64,000 nt of DNA. It comes from Comamonas odontotermitis (GTDB taxonomy: Bacteria; Pseudomonadota; Gammaproteobacteria; Burkholderiales; Burkholderiaceae_C). Below are positions 23,878-48,702 of the stretch, in pieces. The stretch spans positions 67,001-131,000 of the forward strand of contig NZ_CP083452.1 of NCBI RefSeq assembly GCF_020080045.1, in the 5' to 3' direction. Every line of letters starts with the position of its first letter. Positions within the stretch are counted from its first letter, which is position 1. Both the position numbers and the translations under genes were made by a program. Under the pieces are notes generated by a model, which did no database searches, had not been told where the DNA came from, and saw only the letters and a program-made list of their open reading frames with translations.

Positions 23878-23913
23878 CGGTGCTTGCTGCATTGCAGCAG
23901 CGGTGCCAGGCTC

Positions 23914-24116
23914 AGAACGTGTTTACGATCTCCTCGCGCCGCGACAGTGGCTTTGCGGGGCGCCCGCAAACCCACTGTCCCTCTGGGTTGGAGTGAAATC
24001 GGGCGATTTCTGCGCGCTGGCCCTTGCTTGCACCCCGGTGCAAGCTGTGGCCCAGCGCTTCGAACTCATCCCGATTGCACTCCAACGCGGCTGCGTAGAG
24101 ATCGTAAACACGTTCT
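23914..24116. repeat. 203-bp foldback element with 18-bp perfect terminal inverted repeats
   Basis: The ends AGAACGTGTTTACGATCT (23914-23931) and its exact complement (24099-24116) bound a nearly self-complementary unit. Inside are a side hairpin (ACAGTGGCTTTGCGGG against CCCGCAAACCCACTGT, 23944-23979), a stem TTGGAGTGAAATCGGG / CCCGATTGCACTCCAA (23987-24002 with 24070-24085), a nested GCGCTGG / CCAGCGC pair, and an innermost GCTTGCACC / GGTGCAAGC hairpin. It encodes nothing. Its right end supplies the first base of the TCA that forms the methyltransferase stop codon. A related element lies at 30024 and an end fragment at 48652. Confidence 0.85.
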
Positions 24117-26152
24117 CAGAGCGGTGCGCCCAGGATGGTGGTGACTTCTGCTTCGAATCCCAAGACATCCACCGCCCGCACACACACCACGCGCGGCGGG
24201 GCATGTGCAGGCACGGTCAATATGGCTTGTGCGCTCACGCGCAGCGCATCACTGCCGTTGGCAATGCGGGCCACATGGGCGGTGTTGCCCCGGTAGTCGT
24301 GCCAGGCGGGCCGGAAGACCCGCCCGTCATAACTGGGGTCGACGGACCAATACTCGATCAAGGCCAACGGCTCGGCACGGGCCACGGCCTGGAGCTTGGC
24401 GCGGTTGGCGCCTTGCAGGGGGATGGCGTCTGGCGAGAGCAGTGCATAGTCTTTCAGGCGCACGGACAGAATGTCGTGCAGGCCCTGCGGCTGGCATTGC
24501 ACGGGGTGCAATGTCAGGTGTGCCAGTGACGAGAACCGCACTTGGCCGCGCAACCTGTCTACGCCGCCCTTTCTGTGCAGGCAGTCGAGCAGATCGGGTG
24601 GAATGGCCAGCACTTCGAGACGGCTGTCATGGAGCGCGGTGATCGTCTGGCTGATTGAGGGCTCGAAATTCCAGCCCAGCACCACCACCCGGTCCCAGCG
24701 GCCCCATCGGTTCCAACTGCCGGGCAGGTGATCGCGCAGGGACTGGGCCATGTGCAATGTGGCAGCGCAGGTTGTCCTGTCGGGGCTGTCGGCCAGCACC
24801 AAGGTTTTGCCACCTTGCGCGCCCGAAGTGACGCGGCGCGCGACCTGCCCCAGTGGGTACTGCGGGTGCAGGCCCGGCGGCAACGGGGCCGCGCCATACA
24901 GCGACAGCACCATCTGCGAGAGTTCGTCCACGCAGAAATCGCGCTTGCCAAAATGGGCCCGGGCGGCTTCCTCCGGGTAGCTGGCGATGGTCTGGCAGGC
25001 AAATGGTTCTGCACCCTGGCACATCAGGCGCTTGCGGGTGACCATGCACGCGGGCTTGCCGATATCAATGCTGATCCAACGGCGCCCCAGCTTTTGCGCG
25101 ACGGCTGCGGTGGTGCCCGAGCCGCCGAATCCGTCAAGGACGAGGGCGCCTTCGGCAGAGGAGGCCTGGATGATCCGCTCCAGCAGTTTGGCGGGTTTCT
25201 GGGTGGCGTAGTGAACGCTTTCGCTCGCGCGCGAGGCGGTGGAGGTGCTGATGTCCGTCCAGAGGTTGCCAATCACCTCGCTGGCTTCGTCCAGGTAGTA
25301 CTTCTTGTACCGGCTGCCTGACGGTGTTTCATGGATCAGGCCTTGCGCATGCATGCTTTGGATGGTTGCCTCGCAGTAGTTGCCCAGTGTCACCAGCTTG
25401 AATCTGCGGCCGGTGGCCGCTTCCACCTTGTTGTAGGCGGCCTCCTGCTGGCTGTTCAGTGCCCGCCGCAGCTGGTTGAAGGTGTGGCGACCGCTCTTGC
25501 TGTACAGGTAGATGCCGTCGGTGACACTGTCGAACTTGCGCTGGTGCTCTGGCCCCATTCTCCCGACGGTGGCCGCGCGGTGCCAGATGTTTTCATTGAG
25601 GAAGGCGTCCTTGCCAAAGACTTCGTCCATCACGATCTTGACGTAGTGCCCCACATGCCAGTCCAGGTGCACGTAGATCGAGCCGGTGTCGGCCAGCAAC
25701 TCGCGCATCAGAATCAAGCGCGGCGTGATCATGGCAAGGTAGGCGGCCGTGCCTTCGCTCCAGGTGTCCGAGAAGGCCAGTTGCTCGATGACGGTGGGGC
25801 GGTGTTCGTGTTCAATGCCGGGCAAGGTGGCCCTGGTGCGGTAGTCGGCCTTGCTGTCAAAAGGCGGGTCGGTGTAGATCAGGTCGACCTTGCCGCGCAG
25901 GCTGGGTGTCTCCTCGTCGCCTGCGAGCAGCGCCGCCATGGCCAGCAGGTTGTCGCCATGGATCAGGCGGTTCATCCATCGCGGGCCGGGTGGGCGGGCG
26001 TCCGCGCAGGCGCCTTTGCCATCTGGCCGCACCACTTCGCGCGTCTGGAGGCGAACGCGCTCACAGGTGTCCAGGCTTTCAAGGATGCGCTGCGCTTGCC
26101 TGCGTCCCTGGGCAATGATGTTCGGAAGCTGTTCGATGAGTGACTGGGGCAT
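24116..26152 (-). CDS. Beta-type DNA methyltransferase (type III Mod-like), orphan
   Basis: This protein of about 678 residues is an N6-adenine or N4-cytosine DNA methyltransferase. The catalytic motif IV DPPF is near residue 95 (YTDPPFDSK), ahead of the AdoMet motif FGGSG near 342, the beta-class order seen in type III Mod subunits. TQKPAKLLERII just before motif I is also typical. The ~320 C-terminal residues are unlike anything I recognise and may be the target-recognition part. No res helicase-nuclease gene is adjacent, so it is a solitary methyltransferase. The start is uncertain: ATGs at 26152 and 26179 and a GTG at 26209 all lack a good binding site. The stop lies at the edge of the foldback repeat. 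A divergent HTH gene faces it across a palindrome. Confidence 0.87.
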   Translation of the reverse strand: MPQSLIEQLPNIIAQGRRQAQRILESLDTCERVRLQTREVVRPDGKGACADARPPGPRWMNRLIHGDNLLAMAALLAGDEETPSLRGKVDLIYTDPPFDSKADYRTRATLPGIEHEHRPTVIEQLAFSDTWSEGTAAYLAMITPRLILMRELLADTGSIYVHLDWHVGHYVKIVMDEVFGKDAFLNENIWHRAATVGRMGPEHQRKFDSVTDGIYLYSKSGRHTFNQLRRALNSQQEAAYNKVEAATGRRFKLVTLGNYCEATIQSMHAQGLIHETPSGSRYKKYYLDEASEVIGNLWTDISTSTASRASESVHYATQKPAKLLERIIQASSAEGALVLDGFGGSGTTAAVAQKLGRRWISIDIGKPACMVTRKRLMCQGAEPFACQTIASYPEEAARAHFGKRDFCVDELSQMVLSLYGAAPLPPGLHPQYPLGQVARRVTSGAQGGKTLVLADSPDRTTCAATLHMAQSLRDHLPGSWNRWGRWDRVVVLGWNFEPSISQTITALHDSRLEVLAIPPDLLDCLHRKGGVDRLRGQVRFSSLAHLTLHPVQCQPQGLHDILSVRLKDYALLSPDAIPLQGANRAKLQAVARAEPLALIEYWSVDPSYDGRVFRPAWHDYRGNTAHVARIANGSDALRVSAQAILTVPAHAPPRVVCVRAVDVLGFEAEVTTILGAPL

Positions 26153-26245
26153 GGGTACTGGGCGGCACCTTGCTTGCATCCGAGTGGGGATTCGAATGAC
26201 CGAGAGCACGCGATCTATCGATTAAAGTGATAATTCAATATATTT

Positions 26246-29444: not shown

Positions 29445-30017
29445 ATGATAGGCCGATTGAGCGGAACCCTGGTGGAAAAGAACCCCCCCGAAGTGATGGT
29501 GGATTGCAACGGCGTGGGCTACGAGGTGCAGGTGCCCATGAGCACCTTCTACAACCTGCCTGCTGTGGGCGAGAAGGTGGTGGTGCTGACCCAGTTCATC
29601 GTGCGCGAGGATGCGCAGCTGCTCTACGGCTTTGGTACGGCGCAGGAGCGCCAGACTTTCCGCGAGTTGATCAAGATATCGGGCGTGGGCCCGCGCACGG
29701 CGCTCTCCATCCTGAGCGGCCTGGGGGTGAATGACCTCGCGCAGGCTGTGTCGCTGCAAGAGGCCGGGCGCCTGGTGAAGGTGCCGGGCATCGGCAAGAA
29801 GACCGCCGAGCGCCTGCTGCTGGAGCTCAAGGGCAAGCTGGGCGCAGACATTGGCGCCAAGGCGGTGGCGGTGAACGACGCGCAGGCTGATATCCTGCAG
29901 GCGCTGATCGCGCTGGGTTACAGTGACAAGGATGCGGCAGCCGCGCTCAAGGTGTTGCCGGCCGACATCGGCGTGGCAGAGGGTATCAAGCAGGCGCTCA
30001 AGGCCCTGGCAAAATGA
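29445..30017 (+). CDS. ruvA: Holliday junction branch-migration protein RuvA
   Basis: This 190-residue protein tetramerises on Holliday junctions and loads the RuvB motor. Domain I starts [17 protein letters not shown]. The two helix-hairpin-helix motifs are visible ([16 protein letters not shown] and [16 protein letters not shown]), and the C-terminal domain III that contacts RuvB follows ([21 protein letters not shown]). AAGGAAAGATACGA precedes the ATG. ruvB, normally the next gene, is instead 3.8 kb downstream. Confidence 0.96.
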
Positions 30018-30023
30018 CCGGAA

Positions 30024-30152
30024 CAGTGATTTTGCGGGCGGTCTGCATCGTTGCAGCGCTTGCCAATAGGTGGGCTATTGGCTGCACGCTGCGCCTCGCA
30101 TCCCATCCCGCAAAATCACTGTCGCGGCGCGAGGAGATCGTAAACACGTTCT
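30024..30152. repeat. Foldback element, second copy
   Basis: It starts seven bases after the ruvA stop. A perfect 16-bp inverted repeat, ACAGTGATTTTGCGGG (30024-30039) and its complement (30107-30122), encloses nested arms including CCAATAG / CTATTGG. It is followed by CGCGGCGCGAGGAGATCG and the same AAACACGTTCT end as the 203-bp element. The left 18-bp terminus is missing, so this copy is truncated or of a shorter subtype. Confidence 0.75.
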
Positions 30153-30224
30153 GAAGCGGCGCGCGGGCCTGCGGGTTCGGCACAGGTTTCCTTTGATATG
30201 GCAACAACGAGAGGTAGCAAGACC

Positions 30225-47036: not shown

Positions 47037-48662
47037 ATGTCTTCCTGCCTGTTCACCAATGCCAAAGTCTTCACCGGGCGCAGCGAAACCGAGTTTGTCT
47101 CCGCCTTTACCGCCAGAGGCGGCAAGATCACCTGGGTGGGTCATGCAGGCGATGTCCAGCAGCCCGCCGCAGACTTGCAGGTCGATCTGCAGGGCAAGAC
47201 TGTCGTGCCGGGCTTCATCGATGTGCACACCCACCCCACGTTCCTGTCGCAGATTGTGGATGCGGTGCCCTGCACCGTACCCTTGGTCGAAGACATTCCG
47301 GGCCTGATTGCCGCGCTCCGCAAACACCCCAAGGCGGGCATGGGCCCGAACGACTGGATCGAAGGCTGGGGCTATGACGAATCCAAGCTGAAGGAAGGGC
47401 GCACGCCTACGCGGCATGACCTCGATCAAGTCTCCACCACGCAACCGGTCTATGTGGGGCGCTCCGACTGCCACTCGGGCATCTGCAACACCCGGGCATT
47501 GCAGCTGGCAGGCATTGGCCGGGAGACACCTGATCCCATTGGCGGCCACTTTGGCCGCGACGCAGACGGCACGCCCAACGGCGTGCTGACCGAGCTGGCC
47601 GCCAACAGCGTGGTGCAGCGCGCCAAGGCCGTGCAGGATTACGCGCAGGCCGTGGGCAGCCTGGCGCGCACCTCGCAGCGCTTCAGCGAACGCGGCATCG
47701 TCGCCGTGACCGACATGATGGCCTTCACCCAGCCGTTTCACCACCTCTATGTGTACCGCGATGCAGCGCAGGCAGGCTTTCGGCAGCAGGCGGCGCTGTA
47801 TTTTTCGTGGGAGCCCTGCAAGGGCGATCTGCTGGCAGGCCTGCAGGCCGCGCAAAAGGAGGGGCGCGTCAAGATTGCAGGCATCAAACTGTTTGCCGAT
47901 GGCTCCATCTCTGGCAAGACCGCCTGGTGCAGTTGCGCCTACAAACATACTGGCAGCCAAACCGGCAGCCTCTTTGGCATGTCGCTGCTCACCAGCGCGG
48001 CGCTGGAGCAGGCCTACGAATGGTCGCGGGCCAACGGCGCGCAAATGGCCGTGCACGCCATGGGCGATGCCGCGCTGCAACTGGTGATCGATTTCTTTGC
48101 CGACAAGCAGCCCTGGCTGCCTGGCGGCATCCCGTCGGTGCGGCTGGAGCACGCCACCTTGCTCAAGCCCGCGCAGATTGCGCAGATGAACGCCATGCCC
48201 ATGCAATGGGGCGTGGCCACGCAGATCATCTTCATGTTTGCCGAGTACGACGCCTATACCGAGAACCTGGTCGATGCGGAGTTTGAGCAGTCTTACGCGC
48301 TCAAAACCTTCTACCAGCAGATTGCGCACGTGGCGCTGTCGTCCGATGCACCGGCCACCACCTGGGCCGATCCGGACAATGTCTTCGTCTCCATCCAGGC
48401 AGCCGTGCAGCGCCGCGCCTACAACGGCGCGCCCATCGTGGACAGCCAGGCGCTGACCGTGCCGCAGGCCGTGCTGCTCTACACCGCCCGCGCAGCCAGC
48501 CTCTCGCCCTTTGACGGGCAACTCGGCCAGATCGCCCCGGGCTTTGAAGCGAGCTTTGCCGTGCTGAGCGGCGACATCTTCAGCGTGCCTGTGGCAGACA
48601 TTGGCACGCTGCGTGTCGATGCCACCTGGGTGGCTGGCGAGCAGGTGTACGCGGCTGCGTAG
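47037..48662 (+). CDS. Amidohydrolase, YtcJ-like
   Basis: This 541-residue metal-dependent amidohydrolase of the YtcJ/imidazolonepropionase-like group has metal-binding histidines in GFIDVHTHPT near residue 63, VHAMGDAAL near 340, and the late catalytic aspartate in LSSDAPATT. A large insertion after the first motif (WIEGWGYDESKL, PVYVGRSDCHSGICN) is typical of YtcJ. The substrate is unknown; YtcJ-type enzymes hydrolyse diverse amides and esters. The last four codons and the TAG stop (GCGGCTGCGTAG) lie inside a copy of the foldback-repeat end, so the C-terminus has been defined by repeat insertion or conversion. Confidence 0.87.
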   Translation: MSSCLFTNAKVFTGRSETEFVSAFTARGGKITWVGHAGDVQQPAADLQVDLQGKTVVPGFIDVHTHPTFLSQIVDAVPCTVPLVEDIPGLIAALRKHPKAGMGPNDWIEGWGYDESKLKEGRTPTRHDLDQVSTTQPVYVGRSDCHSGICNTRALQLAGIGRETPDPIGGHFGRDADGTPNGVLTELAANSVVQRAKAVQDYAQAVGSLARTSQRFSERGIVAVTDMMAFTQPFHHLYVYRDAAQAGFRQQAALYFSWEPCKGDLLAGLQAAQKEGRVKIAGIKLFADGSISGKTAWCSCAYKHTGSQTGSLFGMSLLTSAALEQAYEWSRANGAQMAVHAMGDAALQLVIDFFADKQPWLPGGIPSVRLEHATLLKPAQIAQMNAMPMQWGVATQIIFMFAEYDAYTENLVDAEFEQSYALKTFYQQIAHVALSSDAPATTWADPDNVFVSIQAAVQRRAYNGAPIVDSQALTVPQAVLLYTARAASLSPFDGQLGQIAPGFEASFAVLSGDIFSVPVADIGTLRVDATWVAGEQVYAAA

Positions 48663-48681
48663 AGATCGTAAATACGTTCTT
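48652..48681. repeat. End fragment of the foldback repeat
   Basis: GCGGCTGCGTAGAGATCG followed by TAAATACGTTCT matches the right end of the 203-bp element at 24089-24116 with one base changed (TAAATACG for TAAACACG). Only this end is present. It provides the amidohydrolase stop codon. Confidence 0.75.
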
Positions 48682-48702
48682 AAGGCTGCGAAAGTTCTAC
48701 AC

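Follow-up and report, generated by a model that had tools for sequence, protein, structure and literature searches.

We identified a new family of foldback MITEs in Comamonas. The 201-bp element at positions 23915..24115 (+ strand) of the window, the 64,000-nucleotide stretch of the Comamonas odontotermitis genome analyzed here, is, with a probability of about 0.9, a copy of a new type-II MITE family that would be moved in trans by an IS5-family transposase and that has a two-armed interior, with an apical module in the longer copies. We assign this MITE to a new family of the IS5 type with high confidence. The original prediction, made from the sequence of the window, called the unit a foldback MITE, and this is borne out by the inverted ends, the TNA target duplication, an empty site, the copy number, and the existence of transposase-bearing elements with similar ends. 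The link to IS5 and the tip motif shared with other elements lie beyond what was seen then.

Structure of the element and its copies in the window

The unit had been described as a 203-bp foldback with perfect 18-bp ends. The inverted repeats are indeed exact over 18 bp (23914-23931 versus 24099-24116), but the element proper is shorter, with 201 bp; the interval 23914-24116 additionally includes, on each side, one outermost base that belongs to a TCA target duplication (23912..23914 on the left and 24116..24118 on the right). The right TCA also provides the stop of the ORF 24116-26209 on the reverse strand. The left terminal inverted repeat, GAACGTGTTTACGATCTC (23915..23932, + strand), which was used for comparison with IS ends, is mirrored by the right one (24098..24115, - strand). 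Between them lie the arm 1 hairpin (23943..23979, + strand), which is shortened and, compared with longer copies, lacks the tip module; a CCC-NNN-GGG mini hairpin (23979..23987, + strand), with a loop that varies among aligned copies; and the arm 2 hairpin (23987..24086, + strand), with the tip GCTTGCACCCCGGTGCAAGC. The fold shows, in line with the original description, a side arm, the mini hairpin and another long arm. The element sits between convergent ORFs, and the ORFs that overlap it are mechanical ones only, in agreement with the proposal that it encodes nothing.

Two related copies had been reported at 30024 and 48652. Both are real, but truncated. The relic at 30020..30151 (- strand) retains arm 1 with the tip module and one terminal repeat, arm 2 and the other end being missing, and is flanked by TGA triplets (30015-30017 and 30152-30154). 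The relic at 48650..48679 (+ strand) consists of a single terminal end, followed by TTA at 48680-48682; it provides the final residues and the TAG stop codon (48660-48662) of a 541-aa ORF (47037-48662).

Copy number and distribution of the family

The full layout of the MITE comprises an end, arm 1, the mini hairpin, arm 2 and the other end, and 88 of the 169 complete elements that we collected (see below) are 264-269 bp long. The elements are short (48-350 bp) and non-coding, with inverted 18-bp ends. The source genome (4.83 Mb, 3 contigs) contains 105 matches to the 18-bp end with at most 3 mismatches, compared to 5 for the reversed-pattern control, and BLAST with the unit returned 101 pieces. 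This high copy number is far above the one or two copies that, according to the original prediction, would speak against a mobile family.

Among 61 genomes (the source and 60 relatives) searched with BLAST, 23 match, 22 of these being Comamonas, and a 22-base end pattern is present, with at most 2 mismatches, in 41 of 53 Comamonas genomes. One genome (G062) has 222 matches to this pattern, possibly reflecting a recent burst. An exact 22-base arm-2 pattern recovered at least 120 stretches; the 80 titles among the matches listed name, besides Comamonas, a single Acidovorax MAG and 'Pantoea sp. 18069'. The latter record (L139, L153, L169; G077) yields 12 BLAST matches to the MITE, and its label or assembly may be wrong. 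Another genome (G026) carries a separate class of 160-162 bp MITEs, with many copies, similar ends and the tip module. No match to the MITE was found in the phage records searched.

Marks of transposition and insertion context

From 294 loci, we collected 169 distinct complete elements with ends within 4 mismatches; two of these contain Ns, at least one (L072) comes from outside Comamonas, and the set also drew on the 40 arm-2 loci other than the 80 whose titles are given above. The target duplication expected of a transposed element, TCA at the copy in the window, is exact over 3 bp in 115 of the 169 elements; when the right flanks were reshuffled in 2000 rounds, the mean was 46.3 and the maximum 64. 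The duplicated triplet is mostly TNA, preceded by C in 114 and followed by G in 117 of the 169 elements, and its middle base is the same on both sides in 124. One empty site was examined: in another Comamonas genome (G068), the joined site reads TTA where the window has TCA-element-TCA. Eighteen of the 169 elements are shorter than 100 bp, and because their interiors are all different, these look like separate deletions.

The gene context was counted for 157 elements, the 12 with short flanks being omitted, on crude gene calls: 131 are intergenic, 24 lie within a predicted gene and 2 at an edge. The genes flanking the 131 intergenic copies are oriented ++ in 39 cases, -- in 35, +- in 32 and -+ in 25; relative to tandem flanking genes, 40 copies are oriented along transcription and 34 against it. 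In 42 of the 131 intergenic copies, the duplication falls exactly on a stop codon. We dropped the possibility of stop-codon targeting: in the window, 8 of the 20 non-disrupting CTNAG sites are already stop codons (39 of 358 for TNA sites), so that the CTNAG preference can explain the overlap.

Relationship to IS5-family elements

In four other Comamonas genomes, we detected six IS5-type loci each of which has one end with 0-1 mismatches to the 18-bp MITE end. The left end of L093 (=L285) and the right end of the contig-cut L108 are identical to the MITE end, the right end of L093 not being found; one mismatch separates the MITE end from the right end of L099 (also contig-cut), the left ends of L089 (=L286) and L091, and the right end of L103, the opposite ends of the latter three having 4, 3 and 3 mismatches, respectively. 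The ends are thus shared with IS5-family IS to the extent that one end fits well and the other, where seen, differs at 3-4 positions. By inspection, the likeness is confined to the terminal ~18-20 bases, and the MITE interior contains no transposase. The presence of an IS5-family transposase in the partner elements follows from family matches: the transposase frames of L079 and L089 match NF033580, PF01609 and PF13586, with PF13340 as a further match for the first L089 frame, and the L093 transposase matches PF01609 and PF13586, whereas L091, L099, L103 and L108 were assigned to the IS5 type by protein search alone. In L079 and L286, the transposase is encoded in two overlapping frames (orfA and orfB), as if expressed via programmed frameshifting. 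The close IS ends and the transposase family matches place the MITE end type in the IS5 family.

The transposase gene with a matching terminus that the original prediction proposed to look for is thus seen, with one close end each, at these six loci in other Comamonas. In the source genome, none of the six PF13586 matches corresponds to an IS with closely matching ends. Three of these matches are 843-bp IS copies with IS5-family transposases, TNA duplications and the ends GAACCTGTTCAAAGTCT, 5-6 mismatches per 18 bases from the MITE end; a fourth, shortened copy has ends with 4 and 6 mismatches; of the remaining two, one has other ends and one is without ends. Among the end matches listed for the source genome, no pair at IS spacing was apparent by eye. 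The IS5-family groups that duplicate TNA include IS1031, ISL2 and IS427. The IS5-family IS seen here combine a two-frame transposase, a size of ~845 bp and a TNA duplication, the last being common with the MITE. Under the mechanism that we propose, IS5-family (DDE) transposases would recognize ends like GAACGTGTTTACGATCTC, act on them in trans and duplicate TNA, mostly within CTNAG. The ends, the duplications, the empty site, the copy number, the likeness to the ends of transposase-bearing IS and the conserved pairing are directly observed; that such an IS moves the Comamonas MITE we infer.

Conserved pairing in the MITE interior

The 203-base unit is predicted to fold very stably, with energies of -136 kcal/mol for the + strand and -146.6 kcal/mol for the - strand; the corresponding z-scores are -14.7 and -14.6, and none of 200 shuffles was as good. 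An Rfam scan of the window yielded no family at the gathering level, and a scan of 7 loci at E<=1 gave three matches, all in L284 and all below gathering.

The internal pairing is also conserved in relatives, a property whose absence, together with a low copy number, had been named as refuting the original prediction. In an alignment of 32 diverse copies (A1), picked below 95% identity from the 88 elements of 264-269 bp and with a mean column identity of 90%, 98.0% of the cells pair, and both sides have changed in a compensatory manner in 23 of the 86 pairs. The compensated cells number 120, compared to a shuffle mean of 34.0 and at most 8 for slid structures; for one of the five covariation measures, the number of further pair types, 2 of 500 shuffles equaled the observed value. 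Such double changes already distinguish copies inside one genome (L005 versus L003). In a larger set of 119 aligned copies (the 32 rows of A1 and two-arm elements of at least 240 bp), variation is lower in paired columns (0.057) than in unpaired ones (0.121). In the same set, 46 G-U and 45 A-C pair types were found, with 159 G-U against 89 A-C cells; given the excess of G-U cells, a weak RNA signal may be present. We considered selection on an RNA strand of the MITE, which the gene-orientation and G-U/A-C tests do not clearly support. In L007, L056, L062, L115 and others, arm 1 contains repeated GCCCCTRRCCGGGC-like units of ~14-15 bp, that is, a minisatellite within the MITE.

A tip module shared with other foldback elements

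Arm 1 of the longer copies ends in a structured motif of ~63 nt, the tip module, which is absent from the copy at 23915. A search of plasmids with the full MITE returned only this arm-1 tip, at 82-87% identity, in four Cupriavidus plasmids and one Mitsuaria plasmid, in each case inside other foldbacks, and further searches extended the module to Diaphorobacter, more Cupriavidus and the alphaproteobacterium Martelella. The exact pattern ACCGCAGN{12,30}CGAGGATTTNCAACG occurs in 6 of 398 genomes of the phylum, the control giving 0 among the matches listed. A covariance model, R1, was built from 19 hand-picked module instances (A2), three unrelated matches of the regular expression being excluded. 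In the window, it identifies the module within the first relic (30039..30102, - strand; 43.0 bits, E 5.5e-9). At E<=1e-4, R1 matches 76 of 300 genomes of the order, which represent 46 of 134 genera; its E-values are rough and, with 17 candidates scored per genome, the numbers of module copies are minimum values. Of 299 genomes drawn from the phylum, 30 match at E<=1e-5, of which 8 are within the order (source genus and family included) and 22 are labeled 'same phylum', outside the class; none of the matches in this draw is labeled 'same class'. Two viral contigs also hold the module. Neisseria is probably among the module-bearing genomes, because in one of these (G631) a sequence repeated near an IS, GGCCGTCTGAAAA, contains what we take to be the neisserial uptake word.

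The structure of the module was assessed in an alignment of 52 matches from 48 chosen loci (A3). Compensatory changes occur in 15 of the 18 module pairs, with a score of 0.472 compared to 0.144 for shuffled and at most 0.077 for slid alignments; the alignment was fitted to the R1 structure and one pair was added by hand, so that this result leans towards the model. Of the 933 module cells, 881 are Watson-Crick, 12 G-U, 4 A-C and 36 other. The apical stem varies, and the unpaired columns 7, 9, 10, 61, 62 and 64 carry 1.63-2.00 bits. The flanks of the module pair as well: at 58 of the 68 module places tested (out of 69), the outer stem has at least 25 pairs (median 37), compared to 46 of 202 mismatched-flank controls (median 14), so that 10 places fall below this level and 23% of the controls reach it. 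These flanks form 38 clusters at the strict score threshold of 44, 24 clusters at a threshold of 30 and 19 at one of 28; shuffles score 25 at most.

The elements that bear the module are diverse at their borders. Repeats found there include TTA/TTA and TAA/TAA at GAGCC, CTAG/CTAG at GAGCCTGTCGG and at a GGAGGTGCTGA end, and TTAA/TTAA at GGAACC. When outer inverted repeats were checked at 47 module places, 5 had none, and several doubtful distant ones resemble chance. In five of ten module-bearing genomes (G431, G293, G655, G558 and G316), no PF01609 transposase was found at E<=1e-10; G431 contains at least 17 module matches. No IS ends in G631, G612 and G043 fit the MITE ends tested. Two near fits were found: the ends GGCAACGCTGAACAAG of an IS in G479 differ at 2 of 16 positions from the left end, GGAAACGCTGAATAAG, of the L353 MITE from a genome of the same genus (G558), and the IS ends GAGCCTGTTTACGATCTT in G299 are 3 mismatches from the Comamonas MITE end.

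Computation shows that the tip module exists and is distributed as described, and both sequence and covariation give good support to an apical structure common to these elements. We read this structure as a portable module with an inferred function. Our leading, albeit tentative, guess is that it works as a DNA hairpin which might help foldback MITEs to form, move or persist, with RNA processing and unselected arm copying as serious rivals.

Comparison with known repeats

BrickBuilt of Porphyromonas gingivalis (PMC4596501), as far as described there, resembles the Comamonas MITE in being non-coding, in having ends in common with IS5-family IS, and in combining internal repeats with long predicted stems. 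It differs in its 12-bp ends and duplications of differing length, in contrast to the 18-bp ends and mostly TNA duplications found here; the two arms, and a tip motif common to other elements, likewise set the Comamonas MITE apart from the published account of BrickBuilt (PMC4596501).

The Correia elements of Neisseria (CREE/NEMIS) are, like the Comamonas MITE, small foldback elements, and their core (CAAGGCG..CCGCAG / GGCGAGG..CAACGC) is similar, in register, to the tip module. The scores of R1 on Correia cores (L366-L378) are not significant (12.8-15.7 bits, E 0.15-0.87); in 13 Correia contigs, 9 of 11 R1 matches lie on cores, the best (19 bits) and the third being off-core. The Correia ends TATAGTGGATTAA differ from those of the Comamonas MITE, which also lacks the TATAGTGG ends that define membership in the Correia family.

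BRE is described in PMC3110155 as a GC-rich betaproteobacterial repeat of ~90 bp that usually lies between genes and occurs in Bordetella, Delftia, Acidovorax, Polaromonas and others; unlike the Comamonas MITE, it is not reported to have terminal inverted repeats or an IS link in the section of that paper devoted to it. Going by this description, BRE and the tip module may be the same repeat. Apart from BRE, we found neither the Comamonas MITE family nor a cross-family tip motif described in the titles and abstract openings of the open-licence literature, and the words Comamonas, Bordetella, apical and conserved motif do not occur in the accessible part of a MITE review (PMC10969869).

Alternative explanations

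A non-coding, palindromic, mostly intergenic and high-copy unit could also belong to the REP/BIME-type repeats that RAYT enzymes mobilize, REP-type repeats being the other option named in the original prediction. Members of that class lack target duplications, whereas the elements here are flanked by TNA duplications and have long terminal repeats and DDE-transposase IS with similar ends, which makes this identity exceedingly improbable. The pairing itself admits other readings. Compensation might be unselected, one arm being copied onto the other when the hairpin is extruded, through template switching or the correction of mismatches, with the module as an old palindrome spread by MITEs; the equal numbers of G-U and A-C types in the MITE, the double changes between copies of the same genome and the frequent deletions among elements are in keeping with such a process. 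Copying the arms alone would not fix loops, so that the near-invariant unpaired module columns, next to a variable apical stem, count against this possible but doubtful account.

Alternatively, the arms and the module could be conserved as RNA, with a read-through transcript folding stably and being processed or stabilizing the mRNA, in the manner of Correia elements, which are reported to bind RNase III (PMC2649163). The very stable folds, the excess of G-U over A-C cells (159 versus 89 in the MITE, 12 versus 4 in the module) and the location of BRE in the region of the Bordetella small RNAs bprJ1 and bprJ2, as stated in PMC3110155, are consistent with such a role. Against it stand the lack of a clear orientation bias relative to tandem genes (40 same, 34 opposite), the equality of G-U and A-C types in the MITE (46 and 45), the small share of G-U in the module (12 of 933 cells) and the window having no Rfam match at the gathering level, and we consider it rather unlikely. 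That the module is an independent small mobile element inserting into the tips of existing MITE hairpins would account for the same module occurring within different flanks (19-38 clusters, depending on the threshold) and for the tip without a module in the copy at 23915; a deletion explains that copy equally well, and such independent mobility seems quite improbable.

A possible seed for foldback MITEs

The ~63-nt module at the apex of arm 1 in longer copies is found again in foldback elements whose arms differ. In a more specific reading of its role, which we regard as speculative and rather unlikely, the tip module would be a portable seed for foldback MITEs, with its conserved internal loops as a putative protein-binding site. 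Located beside an IS end, a hairpin that folds on itself would prime copying back across that end, and the outcome would be an almost perfect palindrome whose ends are identical and whose apex carries the module, ready for the IS transposase; the putative protein site in the loops would be needed for the copying or for tolerance of the long palindrome. If true, this would explain why the same apical motif is found with different arms throughout Burkholderiales (probably including Neisseria) and beyond the class, in Martelella and other genomes, and would connect MITEs with BRE and perhaps with Correia elements.

At stake are the origin of bacterial MITEs and the reason for the strong foldback character of so many of them. 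A conserved apical structure that is combined with different arms and ends offers a concrete handle on both questions that can be mutated, bound and assayed, and the tip module may supply a common core for repeats that have been described separately.
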